Assembly: GCA_027858735.1 (NCBI GenBank)
Contig: JAQICC010000230.1
Coordinates: 1-36,097 of the forward strand
Length of the DNA: 36,097 bases
DNA from: Salinivirgaceae bacterium
GTDB taxonomy: Bacteria > Bacteroidota > Bacteroidia > Bacteroidales > SZUA-534
Direction of reading: 5' to 3'
The notes beneath the pieces were generated by a model. It was not told the origin of the DNA. It worked only from the letters and a program-made list of their open reading frames with translations, and did not search any database. This document shows positions 3,821-35,749 of this stretch, in pieces (positions within the stretch are counted from its first letter, which is position 1; every line of letters begins with the position of its first letter). A program made the translations under genes and the position numbers.

Positions 3821-3875
3821 TAGTCAATCCAGAGTCTTCAGTCAGTTAAGCAACCGAAGACTGGAGACCTTAACC

Positions 3876-4026
3876 TTTTTGGTATTACTACGAATTTAGT
3901 GGAAAATAATTTTATAATGAGTATTTTTTAAGTGAGAACTGAAGACTGAGAACTTCATACTTGAAAACTAAAACACTCATATAATTTTAACCTTACCCAC
4001 AAAATTGGTAGTAGAACCACCTTTTT
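3876..4026 (-). repeat. Inverted-repeat element, copy 1 (3' of malQ)
   Basis: The left arm (3876-3906) is identical over 31 nt to 33922-33952. The right arm (3996-4026) corresponds to 34099-34126, sharing CCCAC and then AATTGGT-N-GTAGAACC. Left and right arms are themselves imperfect inverted repeats (TTGGTATTACTACGAATT against AATTGGTAGTAGAACCA). Pairing continues inward: AATGAGT at 3917-3923 faces ACTCAT at 3975-3980. The interior holds GACTGAGAACT, shared with copy 2 in the opposite orientation. The right arm runs into the malQ stop codon (4025-4027). No open reading frame is inside. It could be a MITE-like element or a structured 3' UTR. Confidence 0.65.
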
Positions 4027-6757
4027 AATAATCAGTATCCCTATCTGTTTCTTTAACCAAATTACCGAGAAGCTTATTAAACTCATTGGCCTTTAGTAAG
4101 TCTTCCAAACTTAAATGCATTCTGTAATTCCAATAGTGACGCGGATTGGCCGGATCATTAATGCGCTCACCATGAGTATCTTCGCTTCTTAATTCATCAT
4201 CCATAGCCAGCAAATCCTGTATAGGAAAAACTGTCCACATAGCTGGTGAGTATAGGTGTTGTAGAATCATATCTTTACACACCCAAGGCTCTGCAAAAAA
4301 TGGTGCATCACCATATTTACCTAGCTGCTGATTGAAAAACATTTGTGTTTTCTCTCGATCCTCCTCCCACCATCCACGAATGGTTGCCATATCGTGTGTA
4401 GATGTTGTGCATACCGACATTGTAGGAGCATCACTAGGGTGAGCAAATTCTTTTTTAGGATCTTTTGGCATTCTTTGAATTTCCAAACTTAAAATACCCA
4501 TTTGGTTCATTACCTCTGGAACAGTAGCAGGTATCATACCTAAATCTTCGCCACAAATAAGCATATTAGTAGCCTCTACCAAAGCAGGAAGCTTTTCAAC
4601 AGCCTGTTCTTTCCAGAATTGTTCGTGCCTATGATAAAAATAATGAATGTAAACATTATTTAAACTGTGCTTTTGCTGATCGTCAAGCTCTTTATACGAA
4701 TAAGTTGAGTGCATTGAAATGCGAGGATGAAAATGTTCATTTAGACCATCGGCGGGTAGTAAAACTACATCAGCTGCCAGTCTTATTAATCCCCACATAA
4801 TTTTGTCATCCTTTTCCGATAAACCTTCAGGCCCTTGTTCTCCTACAAAATGATCATAAATAAGACGCTGAGTTTTAAACGCATTCTTTAAATTGAAAAC
4901 ATTGTATTCCGTTTCATTCAAATATGTATCAATAACCTCATCGGTATAAGCTGCAAAAATATCGTTTAAAAAGTGACCTCGAATGTACGGCTTGCATAAA
5001 CGGCTATAATCAAACCACACCCCATTATTTTGCAATTCATCTTTCGAAAATGGAATTGACGGACGAAAGTGCCCTAAAATACCTTGAACAGCATCGAAAG
5101 GAATTTCCCAAATACGGAAAAAACCCAAAATATGATCGATACGGTAAGCATCGAAGTATTCTGCCATTTTTGTTAGCCTATTTCGCCACCATTGGTAATT
5201 ATCTTTCTGCATTTGCTTCCAATTATAGGTTGGGAATCCCCAGTTTTGCCCATCAACTGAAAAGTCATCAGGTGGTGCTCCTGCCTGACCATCGAAGTTA
5301 AATAATTCAGGTTCGTACCAGGCATCAACACTATGGCGACTAATTCCAATAGGAATATCACCCTTAAGCACAATACCGTTTTTTCGCGCAAAACTACTAA
5401 GCTCGGCAAGCTGTTTATCTAAATAAAACTGAACAAAATACCAATAAGTTATTTCGTTAAAACTTTTCGATTGCTCATTGAAAAGGGCTTTAACCTTGGT
5501 CGATTTATAGTTTTGATAATCTGCCCATTCATTAAAATCACTAGTGCCTAAATGATCACGCAAATAGCAAAAAGCAGCATATGGTTCTAACCAGCTTTTG
5601 TTATGCTTGAAAAATTCTTGGAACTCTTTATTTTTCAAAAATTCGGTTTTCTTTTCTTTAAAAAGTTGTTTGGCATATTTAAGTTTTAAAGTCAGAACCA
5701 AATTGTAATCAACCGTTTGGTTTTTATTTAGCTTTTTTTGTTGCAACAAATATTCATCCATTAAGCCTGCATCTTTAATTTTACCCATTTTAAAGATATT
5801 GAGGTACAGCGGATGAAGGGCAAAAACGGAAATTGCTTTATAAGGGTACGAATCTAAAAAACCATGGGTAGAAATAGTATCGTTTACGGGTAAAACCTGA
5901 ATCATTTTTAGGCTGGTTTTCTTGGCCCAGTTTACAAGTTTTTTTAAGTCAAGAAATTCACCTACCCCAAAACTTTCATTGGTACGTAGCGAAAATACAG
6001 GAACCGCCACACCCGCTTTTTTAAATGAATTACCCGAAAAATGGAAAAGACCATCGCAAATTTGATAATAACTATTGTTATTTGAAGCCTCCAGATAGGC
6101 GAATCTATTGCCACCATCTTCCCAGGTAGTTATTTTACCTATTTTTTTATTTACGATTACATATTTATACTCAACAACCTGGGGTAAGTCGGCCACATTA
6201 AATGCTGTTTTCCATTCCGGAAAATCAACATCGTTTAAGGTCACCGCTTTGCTTTCATCCCAGTTCCCAAGCACATTACAATTTCCCAAAATTGCAATAT
6301 CATAATCTCTCCCTACTCGCGGTGCCATTACTTTAAACTCAATAACACTATTTACTTTTGCAGGAATTGAGTATGTTTTTGCTTGACTATCATTCCTATT
6401 AAATACAACATTAGCAAATGCCGATTTTGTCCAAACATATTGGTCATTCCCATGATAACGCCATAAATCCTTTAAGTTAATATCACCAAATCGGGATGCA
6501 TTCCCAGTAAATTTACGATTGGTTCCAAATTCATAAAAAATGGTATTCCGATTACCATCTCTCATGAAATATTTGTACTCAATTGCCACTTTTGCACTAG
6601 CCTTAAGTTCAATAATAACTTTCCACTTATCTTCAGTTATACTTTTTAAAGGAATAGCGTTTTCAATTTTCCAGCTGCCAAGTTCTTTGGTAGAACCTAC
6701 TAAAAACAATGACTGCCCCCATTCCGTAGGACAATAGCACTCAAAAGAAATATTCAT
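4025..6757 (-). CDS. malQ: 4-alpha-glucanotransferase (amylomaltase, GH77) with two N-terminal CBM20 domains
   Basis: The 910-aa enzyme disproportionates maltodextrins and starch oligosaccharides, releasing glucose, in the cytoplasm (no signal peptide). Two starch-binding CBM20 modules lie at about 1-105 and 120-235 (each with ..LGNCNVLGNWDESKAV-like segments). A long GH77 domain follows. Catalytic residues can be placed: nucleophile D541 in YRIDHILGFF, acid/base E737 in CGEDLG, and D789 in TSTHDMAT. This CBM20-CBM20-GH77 plan is the DPE2-like form common in Bacteroidota and plants. The start at 6757 opens directly into the first CBM20 (FECYCPTEWGQSL), and a good promoter lies about 50 nt upstream. 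Its 3' end abuts a repeated inverted-repeat element. Confidence 0.95.
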   Translation of the reverse strand: MNISFECYCPTEWGQSLFLVGSTKELGSWKIENAIPLKSITEDKWKVIIELKASAKVAIEYKYFMRDGNRNTIFYEFGTNRKFTGNASRFGDINLKDLWRYHGNDQYVWTKSAFANVVFNRNDSQAKTYSIPAKVNSVIEFKVMAPRVGRDYDIAILGNCNVLGNWDESKAVTLNDVDFPEWKTAFNVADLPQVVEYKYVIVNKKIGKITTWEDGGNRFAYLEASNNNSYYQICDGLFHFSGNSFKKAGVAVPVFSLRTNESFGVGEFLDLKKLVNWAKKTSLKMIQVLPVNDTISTHGFLDSYPYKAISVFALHPLYLNIFKMGKIKDAGLMDEYLLQQKKLNKNQTVDYNLVLTLKLKYAKQLFKEKKTEFLKNKEFQEFFKHNKSWLEPYAAFCYLRDHLGTSDFNEWADYQNYKSTKVKALFNEQSKSFNEITYWYFVQFYLDKQLAELSSFARKNGIVLKGDIPIGISRHSVDAWYEPELFNFDGQAGAPPDDFSVDGQNWGFPTYNWKQMQKDNYQWWRNRLTKMAEYFDAYRIDHILGFFRIWEIPFDAVQGILGHFRPSIPFSKDELQNNGVWFDYSRLCKPYIRGHFLNDIFAAYTDEVIDTYLNETEYNVFNLKNAFKTQRLIYDHFVGEQGPEGLSEKDDKIMWGLIRLAADVVLLPADGLNEHFHPRISMHSTYSYKELDDQQKHSLNNVYIHYFYHRHEQFWKEQAVEKLPALVEATNMLICGEDLGMIPATVPEVMNQMGILSLEIQRMPKDPKKEFAHPSDAPTMSVCTTSTHDMATIRGWWEEDREKTQMFFNQQLGKYGDAPFFAEPWVCKDMILQHLYSPAMWTVFPIQDLLAMDDELRSEDTHGERINDPANPRHYWNYRMHLSLEDLLKANEFNKLLGNLVKETDRDTDY

Positions 6758-8509: not shown

Positions 8510-8531
8510 TTAATGCAACTTATTGCATTAA
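8510..8531. promoter_or_regulatory. Probable LacI-family operator O1
   Basis: Perfect palindrome TTAATGCAA (8510-8518), spacer CTTA, TTGCATTAA (8523-8531). It sits just upstream of a possible lacI promoter (TTTTG at 8543-8547 and TATACTTA at 8565-8572). Two related palindromes lie between this regulator and the GH2 operon, which makes it likely to be the regulator's own binding site (autoregulation). Confidence 0.75.
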
Positions 8532-8584
8532 AGAAAAATCACTTTTGCTAAATTGCATTGTTTTTATACTTAAAAGCCTAAATT

Positions 8585-9607
8585 ATGCAAGGTAAAAAAA
8601 ACATTACCATTAACGATTTGGCGAAAGCCCTAAACACTTCTTCATCAACAGTTTCACGAGCTCTAAAAGATCATCCAAAAATTAGTCAGTCAATGAAATT
8701 GAAAGTGAAAGAAACGGCTATAAAATTAGGATATGTACAAAGCATTCAAGCCTCTATTCAAAAAGGCTTTAACAACCATACCCTAGGAATTATTGTACCT
8801 TCACTTAGTGAGACTAAATACAGTACCCTTATTGAATCGGCACAAAAAATTCTTAAAAACGAAGGGTTTACTGTTGTTGTAAGTTGCACATCAAATTCGA
8901 CCGAACAAGAAGAAAAAATACTGCAACTATTTAAAAATTTAAACATTAGAGGTGTAATATCGTCATTAACATCCGAAAATAAGAATCCTAAATATTACCA
9001 TACATTTATTAAAGACACACCGCTAATTCTTGTGGATAGAGTTGGAATTGAAATACCTTGCAAAAAAATTATGACCGACCATTTTCAAGTCGGATTCAGA
9101 AGTGTGCAACATTTGCTAAACATTGGCTGCCATAATATTGCTCACATTGGTGGAAACATTAACTGCCCTCTCTCCAAACAAATTTCAACAGGATACAAAA
9201 CTGCATTACGACAAAGCGGTAAGATTGCGAATCCTAAGCTTGAAGTTTTTTCTGACCAATTGCATACCGATATTATGAAAGCCACAGAATTAATATACAG
9301 CCAAAAAATAAAACCCGATGCTATTTTGGTTGATGAAATTATGGCAGCTCAAAAACTGGTGTCAATATTACAAACCCGAAAAATTAAAATACCTGACGAT
9401 GTTGCCATAATTGCCATTGGAGACGAAAAAGATTATTCCTTTTACTCCCCATCTCTAACTACAATTCAAATTCCTTACGAAAAAATTGGAAAAAGGGCTG
9501 CCCAACTATTATTGGATGAAATTGAAAATGAAGGGCGTGTTCAAAAAGATGAAATTTTGGTTGAACCTTTTCATTTAAATATCAGAAATTCAACATTAAA
9601 ATCATAA
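8585..9607 (+). CDS. LacI-family transcriptional regulator of the glucosamine/chitosan locus
   Basis: The 340-aa protein starts with the LacI helix-turn-helix and hinge helix (about 5-55: TINDLAKALNTSSSTVSRAL), followed by a periplasmic-binding-protein-like effector domain (about 62-335) that ends in the usual operator/ligand segment PSLTTIQIPYEKIGKRAAQLL. It probably senses glucosamine, GlcN-6-P or a chito-oligosaccharide, inferred from the downstream genes. Palindromes of one type lie before the gene, across its stop codon and at the operon promoter. The gene runs in the same direction as the operon but is separated from it by 171 nt containing an operator-overlapped promoter, so it is probably a separate transcription unit. 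Confidence 0.9.
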   Translation: MQGKKNITINDLAKALNTSSSTVSRALKDHPKISQSMKLKVKETAIKLGYVQSIQASIQKGFNNHTLGIIVPSLSETKYSTLIESAQKILKNEGFTVVVSCTSNSTEQEEKILQLFKNLNIRGVISSLTSENKNPKYYHTFIKDTPLILVDRVGIEIPCKKIMTDHFQVGFRSVQHLLNIGCHNIAHIGGNINCPLSKQISTGYKTALRQSGKIANPKLEVFSDQLHTDIMKATELIYSQKIKPDAILVDEIMAAQKLVSILQTRKIKIPDDVAIIAIGDEKDYSFYSPSLTTIQIPYEKIGKRAAQLLLDEIENEGRVQKDEILVEPFHLNIRNSTLKS

Positions 9608-9625
9608 TGCAACATATTGCATCGA
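9604..9625. promoter_or_regulatory. Probable LacI-family operator O2
   Basis: ATGCAA (9607-9612), spacer CATA, TTGCAT (9617-9622): the perfect core of the O1 palindrome with diverged outer bases. It overlaps the regulator's stop codon (9605-9607). Its centre is about 142 bp from that of O3, a distance compatible with DNA looping. Confidence 0.65.
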
Positions 9626-9717
9626 CAAAAAATCATTTTAAATATCTCAACACATGACTATTAACAAATATAATTGCTTGAACACATCTCATTTAGAAAC
9701 GATAAATTCACTCTTTA

Positions 9718-33877: not shown

Positions 33878-33908
33878 AAAAAAAAGGATTGCTCTTAATA
33901 AGCAATCC
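33878..33908 (-). terminator. Intrinsic terminator directly before the pnuC start codon
   Basis: On the minus strand, a perfect 8-bp stem GGATTGCT/AGCAATCC (33901-33908 with 33886-33893, 7-nt loop) is followed by eight T residues (complement of 33878-33885). Only 11 nt separate the T-tract from the pnuC ATG. It may end the S41 protease transcript or act as an attenuator for pnuC, or both. Confidence 0.85.
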
Positions 33909-33921
33909 TGATATGTTAGTA

Positions 33922-34126
33922 TTTTTGGTATTACTACGAATTTAGTGGAAAAACTTATAAATAGTACATTTTTATCAATGGAATATAGTCGACAGTCTGC
34001 AGTTCTCAGTCGATAAATTGACTGTGGACTGATCCCGATAACAATCGGGAGAGAACTATTGACCTTAAAATCTAAATATGTACATCTTATAAAAAACACC
34101 CACTAATTGGTTGTAGAACCTTTTTT
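33922..34126 (-). repeat. Inverted-repeat element, copy 2 (3' of the S41 protease gene)
   Basis: The left arm (33922-33952) equals that of copy 1 over 31 nt; the right arm (34099-34126) shares CCCAC and AATTGGT-N-GTAGAACC. Pairing extends inward with sequence unlike copy 1: ACTTATAAATAGTACATTTTTA region (33953-33974) against TAAATATGTACATCTTATAA (34073-34092). Inside are CAGTCTGCAGTT against GACTGTGGACTG and a perfect small hairpin CCCGAT-AACA-ATCGGG (34033-34048). The right arm lies 6 nt from the S41 stop codon. It is about 55 nt longer than copy 1, and no reading frame is inside. Confidence 0.65.
33950..33978 (-). promoter_or_regulatory. Possible pnuC promoter within the repeat element
   Basis: On the minus strand TTG (complement of 33976-33978), an 18-nt spacer and TAAGTTTT (complement of 33950-33957, one mismatch to TAnnTTTG). 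Transcription from here would give a leader of roughly 75-80 nt containing the terminator hairpin. It is the best promoter-like match I found in the S41-pnuC gap, but it is weak. Confidence 0.3.
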
Positions 34127-34132
34127 AATCTC

Positions 34133-35749
34133 TTATTTTAAAAGCTTTGCATTGTAAGCATCCTTATCAAGAATTACACGTAGTGCCTCAAGATAAATTT
34201 GATCGGATTGATTAATTATTTCATAAAACTCACTGGTTGTAAATAGATCGCGAGCGACCAAAGCTTTTAAGTTAATTTTTAAATGGGTTAAACTTTTATT
34301 GTATTCTTCTTCGTTAAACTCAAGCTTTTCTTTTTCTGCAAAATCTAATAACGCCTTTAAAAATTCATCATCAACCTCGTAATTACTTTTAAAAAAGCTG
34401 AAATCTTTGTCTTTTTTCTTGCCTAAATACTTTTTCTCAAGTTCATTTCGATGCTCATCCATGTAGGTTAAAATAAACCTATTAATAATACCCTTGCGAA
34501 TTAAATCGCGGTAATAATCAGAGTAATCAGTAGTATCAATCGGCACAAAAATATCGGGCATAATACCCCCTCCACCATATACTGCACGCGCATTAACTAA
34601 TGTAGCGTATTTAAGAGAATCAGGAAAATGGATAGAATCTTCATTTGAAAGTTCTCCATTATTATATCGGTTAACCAGATCATGACGATAGGCTTCGTTT
34701 CCACCTTTGTACGATTTTTGAATTAACCTACCCGTAGGTGTATAATAACGTGCTATGGTTAAGCGCATAGCAGATCCATCGGGAAGGTTTAATGGACGTT
34801 GAACCAAACCTTTTCCAAAACTACGTCGGCCTACAAGAACACCACGATCCCAGTCTTGAATAGCACCACTAACAATTTCACTAGCCGATGCTGAACCTTC
34901 GTTTACCATTATTACCACCCTTCCCTCATTAAAGCTGCCTAAATTGGTAGCTTTCATATCCTGACGCGGGCTTTTTATACCTTCAGTATAAACAATCATT
35001 TGACCTCCTTTCAAAAATTCGTCGGCCAATTCATGAGCCATATTTAAGTAGCCTCCCCCATTATCGGTTAAATCGAGAATTAAATTTTCTGCGCCATCGG
35101 CTCTCAATTTTTTCATAGCCTCTCGATATTCCTGCATAGTCTTTGCTGAAAACCTGTTAAGTTTTATATATCCAACTTTTTCTTTTTCATCAACCATATA
35201 GGCAGCATCTAAACTAAAAATTGGAATTTTATCGCGAATAATTTCAAAATCGAGTAAGACATTAACTTCACGACGTTTAATAGAAACCACCACTATGGTT
35301 CCTTTTTTTCCTTTTAAACGATCGAACACCATTTGATTTGTTAAACCAATTCCGGCAACATTCTCAGTATCGATTGCTACAATACGATCGCCAGCTAAAA
35401 TCCCAACTTTCTCTGACGGCCCACCAGATATTGGTGAAACAACGAAAAGTGTATCATGCATAATATTAAACTGTACTCCAATACCTTCAAAGCTACCTTC
35501 CAAAGGTTCATTCATTTTTTTTACATCTTCTTTCGAAATATATACTGAATGTGGATCAAGTTTTTTAAGCATTTCAACCACTGCTGTTTCTACTAAATTT
35601 TCTTTATCTACAGAATCAACATAAAAATTATCGATATAGCCTAAAACCTTTGAGAACTTATAAACTTCGTCGTTAAATAACTGGGCTTTAGAAGTAAAAC
35701 TAAAAAGCAAAACTCCAAATATTAAACTTAATACAATTCTTTTTGTCAT
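34133..35749 (-). CDS. S41 family C-terminal processing peptidase (CtpA/Tsp type)
   Basis: A 538-aa exported serine protease that degrades or trims periplasmic proteins from the C-terminus. It has a signal peptide (about 1-22, TSKAQ), a helical N-terminal region, a PDZ domain (about 85-165, with EGSFEGIGVQF and GPSEKVGILAGDRI) and the S41 catalytic core. The Ser-Lys dyad can be placed at S288 (GSASASE) and K313 (SFGKG). A C-terminal helical tail (about 400-538) is the form usual in Bacteroidota. It has its own -7 box, and the inverted-repeat element and a terminator follow its stop codon. Confidence 0.94.
   Translation of the reverse strand: MTKRIVLSLIFGVLLFSFTSKAQLFNDEVYKFSKVLGYIDNFYVDSVDKENLVETAVVEMLKKLDPHSVYISKEDVKKMNEPLEGSFEGIGVQFNIMHDTLFVVSPISGGPSEKVGILAGDRIVAIDTENVAGIGLTNQMVFDRLKGKKGTIVVVSIKRREVNVLLDFEIIRDKIPIFSLDAAYMVDEKEKVGYIKLNRFSAKTMQEYREAMKKLRADGAENLILDLTDNGGGYLNMAHELADEFLKGGQMIVYTEGIKSPRQDMKATNLGSFNEGRVVIMVNEGSASASEIVSGAIQDWDRGVLVGRRSFGKGLVQRPLNLPDGSAMRLTIARYYTPTGRLIQKSYKGGNEAYRHDLVNRYNNGELSNEDSIHFPDSLKYATLVNARAVYGGGGIMPDIFVPIDTTDYSDYYRDLIRKGIINRFILTYMDEHRNELEKKYLGKKKDKDFSFFKSNYEVDDEFLKALLDFAEKEKLEFNEEEYNKSLTHLKINLKALVARDLFTTSEFYEIINQSDQIYLEALRVILDKDAYNAKLLK

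Follow-up and report, generated by a model that had tools for sequence, protein, structure and literature searches.

Two short sequences located just 3' of a stop codon, one beside malQ and the other beside a gene encoding a Peptidase_S41 protein, raise the question of whether they represent an RNA structure conserved at gene ends or copies of a mobile element. Both lie in a window of 36,097 nucleotides (the whole stretch of DNA analysed) from a Salinivirgaceae bacterium of the Bacteroidales. The original prediction described a two-copy inverted-repeat element with covarying stems and proposed either a MITE-like family or a conserved 3'-UTR RNA. The data presented here indicate that both sequences are very probably copies of a non-autonomous, non-coding MITE with ISL3-family ends. 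The features concerned are the following.

3873..3880, no strand: left target site duplication of copy 1, ACCTTTTT, 8 bp
3881..4018, plus strand: copy 1, 138 nt, subfamily A, in left-to-right orientation, GGTATTACTACG...GGTAGTAGAACC, both ends delimited
4019..4026, no strand: right target site duplication of copy 1, ACCTTTTT, overlapping the malQ stop by the final two bases of that codon
4025-4027, minus strand: malQ stop codon, from the gene coordinates
4025..6757, minus strand: malQ (4-alpha-glucanotransferase; PF02446, Glyco_hydro_77, E 5.7e-148), whose 3' end adjoins copy 1
33885..33909, minus strand: predicted intrinsic terminator of the S41 gene, copy 2 lying between it and the S41 stop
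33927..34120, plus strand: copy 2, 194 nt, subfamily B, flanked by GTATTTTT and TTTTTTAA without a clean duplication
34133..35749, minus strand: Peptidase S41 gene (PF03572, E 3e-48), whose 3' end adjoins copy 2

Boundaries and copies of the element

The arms that drew attention to these loci are real. A 31-nt identical left arm (3876-3906 and 33922-33952) and similar right arms were found again in the two copies, each of which can form a long imperfect hairpin according to RNA folding and has a much more stable fold than dinucleotide-shuffled sequences (z -5.4 for copy 1 and -4.4 for copy 2). The boundaries first assigned, 3876-4026 and 33922-34126, had to be moved to 3881-4018 and 33927-34120, the extra bases being an 8-bp target duplication for copy 1 and host DNA for copy 2. 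Both copies do lie just 3' of a stop codon, at distances of 6 nt (copy 1) and 12 nt (copy 2) instead of the 0-6 nt initially given, and the stop next to copy 1 overlaps the duplicated target.

The ends of the element are asymmetric (GGTATTACTACG / GGTTCTACTACC); the left one reads GGTATTACTACGAATTTAGTGGAA and the right one, read inward, GGTTCTACTACCAATTTTGTGGGTAA. They constitute terminal inverted repeats of about 22 nt, which are imperfect because the left and right ends differ at four positions. An ORF scan of both window copies found no frame of 90 aa or more, copy 1 being merely 138 nt long.

A search of the bacterium's own genome (6.0 Mb in 452 contigs, 99% complete) with copy 1 as query retrieved 63 matching stretches at a minimum of about 40 loci, a lower bound as 40 of 120 candidates were scored; about five of these loci carry the right end alone. 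The prediction of a two-copy element thus does not hold and, because about 40 loci were found, neither does the case that it regarded as contrary to itself, namely only two copies genome-wide. Using both ends, 25 complete copies could be delimited, mostly of 116-222 nt with one of 335 nt, so that the element is short, dispersed and multi-copy, as a MITE (of about 50-500 nt) should be. Grouped by eye from their sequences, the copies of this genome sort into a subfamily A, with an older A2, and a subfamily B. Related elements with unrelated interiors are present in four other genomes (G001, G002, G004 and G009) and in a Bacteroidales MAG.

Various other repeats were observed. A second group in the same genome (L127:110-446, also L123, L124, L125 and L133) terminates on the right exactly as the element does (TACCCACAAAATTGGTAGTAGAACC); its interior, however, is unrelated and does not vary between members over at least 170 nt, and its left end is other or undefined. 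A 213-nt repeat family (ACCCAAATTGAGCGATTCGC...GAATCGCTCAACTTAGGT) occurs within or adjoining several elements (L123:839-1051, L132:1012-1224 and L146:659-871), and in G009 a sequence resembling the end of this repeat starts one base past the malQ stop codon. Within the window, an imperfect palindrome of the CAGTCTTC type (GTCTTCAGTC...GAAGACTGGAGAC) at 3827-3872, beside copy 1 and outside its duplication, is perhaps the remnant of an older element, and a 35-nt direct repeat (8511-8545 and 9605-9639; 83% identity), partly palindromic (TAATGCAACTTATTGCATTA), flanks an ORF at 8585-9607.

Target duplications and the probable ISL3 parent

Copy 1 is bordered on both sides by ACCTTTTT, a perfect 8-bp target duplication. 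Among the 25 complete copies, such duplications are exact in six and carry one mismatch in seven, whereas left flanks paired with the right flanks of other copies give means of 0.09 (exact) and 0.33 (at most one mismatch), with maxima of 2 and 4 over 5000 trials. Exact flank repeats peak at a length of 8. Of 400 flank bases, 350 are A or T, so that the targets are A+T-rich. Flank repeats of 8 bp are what transposition leaves behind when the target is cut with an 8-bp stagger. The remaining 12 copies, including copy 2, display no recognisable duplication, as would be expected of copies that may be old.

Palindromic and intergenic sequences carrying GTAG/CTAC in their ends could also evoke palindromes of the REP/BIME type, which a RAYT enzyme (IS200/IS605-like) would mobilise, a reading that deserves almost no credence. 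IS200/IS605-type transposition is not known to produce a target duplication, and the 8-bp duplications observed here contradict this reading; the ISL3-like ends and the length of most copies (116-222 nt) also speak against it. REP/RAYT elements are defined as palindromes of 20-40 bp without target duplication (compare PMC3733652), so that a length of at least 116 nt and 8-bp duplications exclude this candidate.

In G026 and G001, the right end of the element matches the 3' end of an ISL3 transposase gene, stop and final codons included; the encoded protein ends in GGLDLYPQKW (PF01610, E 3.5e-14). Three contigs of G001 terminate within such an ISL3 element, which is expected if that element is multi-copy. 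Complete ISL3 elements of 1277 bp, whose open frames span 409-412 codons, were found in G322 and G201, which belong to other families of the same order; the G322 transposase matches NF033550 (E 7e-85) and PF01610 (E 4e-73). In both, left and right ends are asymmetric in the way seen for the small element, the ends in G201 being GGTTCTACCACGATTTAAGTGGAA (left) and GGTTCTACTGTTATTTTAATGGGTA (right). The G201 copy is flanked on both sides by TTTTTTAT, an 8-bp duplication, and none surrounds the complete copy in G322. The ends are therefore common to ISL3 elements of G001, G026, G201 and G322. With ISL3-family insertion sequences (PF01610 / NF033550) the element shares asymmetric ends and an 8-bp target duplication, but these insertion sequences measure 1277 bp and carry a transposase gene, while the element has about 140-220 nt and no gene. 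Because it combines ISL3 ends, an 8-bp duplication and the lack of any gene, the element is assigned to the ISL3-type MITEs.

The element is probably moved by an ISL3 transposase. Provided in trans, this enzyme would recognise both ends of the element and place it in intergenic, A+T-rich DNA with an 8-bp target duplication; surviving insertions would be found mainly just past stops, since promoters and reading frames are spared there. No transposase gene with the ends of the element was found in the 452-contig draft of its own genome, where two ISL3 genes lack these ends, and a search of viral contigs and plasmids for the transposase gave nothing close. Across 84,980 species genomes, the exact left-end pattern has a single match, in the Bacteroidales MAG. 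The matching transposase may be either lost from the genome or unassembled, and this is the main gap in the case; its presence in the same genome is needed for current mobility and unnecessary for the origin of the element.

In G026, two inverted ISL3 transposase ends bracket about 3.3 kb with one frame for an MFS-like transporter and another of 672 aa (L061:387-4734), an arrangement that resembles a composite transposon or, alternatively, two insertion sequences after rearrangement.

Neighbouring genes, empty sites and pairing of the arms

In relatives, no element was found within 450 nt of the stop of malQ (0 of 9 orthologues) or of the S41 gene (0 of 9). In G002 and G004, a terminator (GGATTGC...GCAATCC followed by eight T) lies about 25-30 nt past the S41 stop, and in the window copy 2 has the same stop on one side and a similar terminator on the other. 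The site of copy 2 is thus empty in these two genomes, stop and terminator being present. Furthermore, the S41 gene and its own terminator lie on either side of copy 2, an argument against copy 2 being that terminator. Many copies, exact 8-bp duplications, the match to ISL3 ends and the empty sites of relatives together give strong support to the MITE-like family that had been proposed.

Genes around the copies were called by a simple gene finder based on codon usage, the output of which was checked on the window; gene starts are approximate. Among 26 elements examined, 16 are bordered by a stop and, at the opposite edge, by a start. Their orientation to genes is random (8:8 over those 16 copies), so the shared orientation to the upstream gene, initially noticed in the two window copies, is due to chance and was rejected as a property of the element. 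These insertions are shifted towards the stop (mean relative position 0.31, p 0.004), seven being within 12 nt of it against 2.5 expected (p 0.005), although numbers are small and the 12-nt threshold was chosen post hoc. The proposed preference for 3' ends is therefore retained as a modest enrichment near stops in a small sample, which selection against promoter insertions explains as well as target preference does.

This proximity to stops and the strong folding of both copies could suggest a conserved structured RNA, or a 3'-UTR processing or termination signal, under selection for base pairing. Such a reading would predict compensatory changes in the arms. The inner sequences of copy 1 (A) and copy 2 (B) differ as a block, and the stems appear to covary because the two copies come from separate subfamilies. 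When 22 or 25 copies are considered, the consensus fold retains only six outer pairs, with no excess of covariation. Among the 16 A/A2 copies, six pairs are changed on both sides, versus 6.1 in shuffles; helices 1-4 (outer and subterminal, 33 pairs) contain one such pair, and the subterminal helices 2-4 none. The nine B-type copies likewise have no such pairs in helices 1-3 (outer and subterminal), and their excess (9 pairs versus 4.5 in shuffles) is confined to the central hairpin, where counts are small and depend on how the heptamer repeats, which are abundant and hard to align, are aligned. In an arm-swap test, left inner arms show no pairing advantage with their own right arms over those of other subfamilies (p 0.70). 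The covariation check thus yields nothing in the subterminal stems and, for subfamily B alone, a weak signal in the central hairpin; the covariation suggested by the inner arms is not borne out within subfamilies.

The excess in the B hairpin is the one observation on pairing changes that favours a conserved RNA. Against it stand insertion, as shown by target duplications, a position that is not fixed at malQ or S41 orthologues, random orientation, the negative arm-swap result, subterminal stems devoid of compensatory change, a consensus fold limited to the outer pairs, the intact native terminator downstream of copy 2 and an Rfam search of the window that matched only a tRNA. A 3'-UTR RNA structure, the second option of the original prediction, is hardly credible on these grounds.

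A more plausible variant, though still a doubtful one, is a MITE whose palindrome is actively maintained, by template-switch (quasi-palindrome) correction or by hairpin selection during transposition, so that the arms, chiefly in the repeat-rich tip, stay complementary while their sequence changes. In several genera, subfamilies with unrelated interiors nonetheless form long imperfect palindromes, and covariation, where seen, sits in the central hairpin, that is, in the heptamer-repeat region. However, in most copies the pairing of the inner arms does not surpass that of swapped or shuffled A+T-rich arms, no excess is seen in subfamily A, the larger set, and the few changes in the central hairpin hinge on the repeat alignment. 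A palindrome inherited within each subfamily is the most economical reading; template-switch mutation in the repeat-rich tip could nevertheless account for some real covariation without any RNA function.

The tip of most copies, across genera, consists of CAGTC-like heptamers, and G002 (L070) has an array of a 6-nt type. In one copy (L130:819-1011), the centre has grown to 27.6 heptamer units (AGTCTTC), forming a minisatellite within a MITE.

Related elements and significance

The closest described case, and a precedent, is an ISL3-type MITE of Microcystis aeruginosa, a 187-nt element with ISL3-like ends (GGCTCTTCG), 8-nt direct repeats and 31-33 copies (PMC11448079). Both are non-coding, mainly intergenic stem-loop elements of similar length and copy number with 8-nt repeats, but they differ in sequence and lineage; moreover, the Microcystis copies are identical, whereas those described here have diverged into subfamilies and their own genome lacks a matching transposase. 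Within the same phylum, BrickBuilt from Porphyromonas gingivalis is also a multi-copy MITE with an internal tandem-repeat array, of a 23-nt unit (PMC4596501). Its ends, however, are like those of ISPg1/ISPg9, and an array is prominent in one copy only of the present family. No published description of this family was found in a literature coverage that is incomplete. The element is confidently identified as a new family of a known kind, the ISL3-type MITEs.

A function may attach to the central hairpin and to the preference for sites no more than about 12 nt from a stop, the element having been co-opted as a portable 3'-UTR structure. This is highly unlikely; if true, it would affect the mRNA ends or the stability of many genes. 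No special function is indicated for the element, which is an ordinary genomic passenger rather than an RNA signal conserved at the ends of genes. Two diverged palindromic copies can mimic RNA covariation if just one pair is compared. Globally, these results add to a Bacteroidales lineage a family of ISL3-type MITEs whose subfamilies extend over several genera and which is otherwise an ordinary mobile element.
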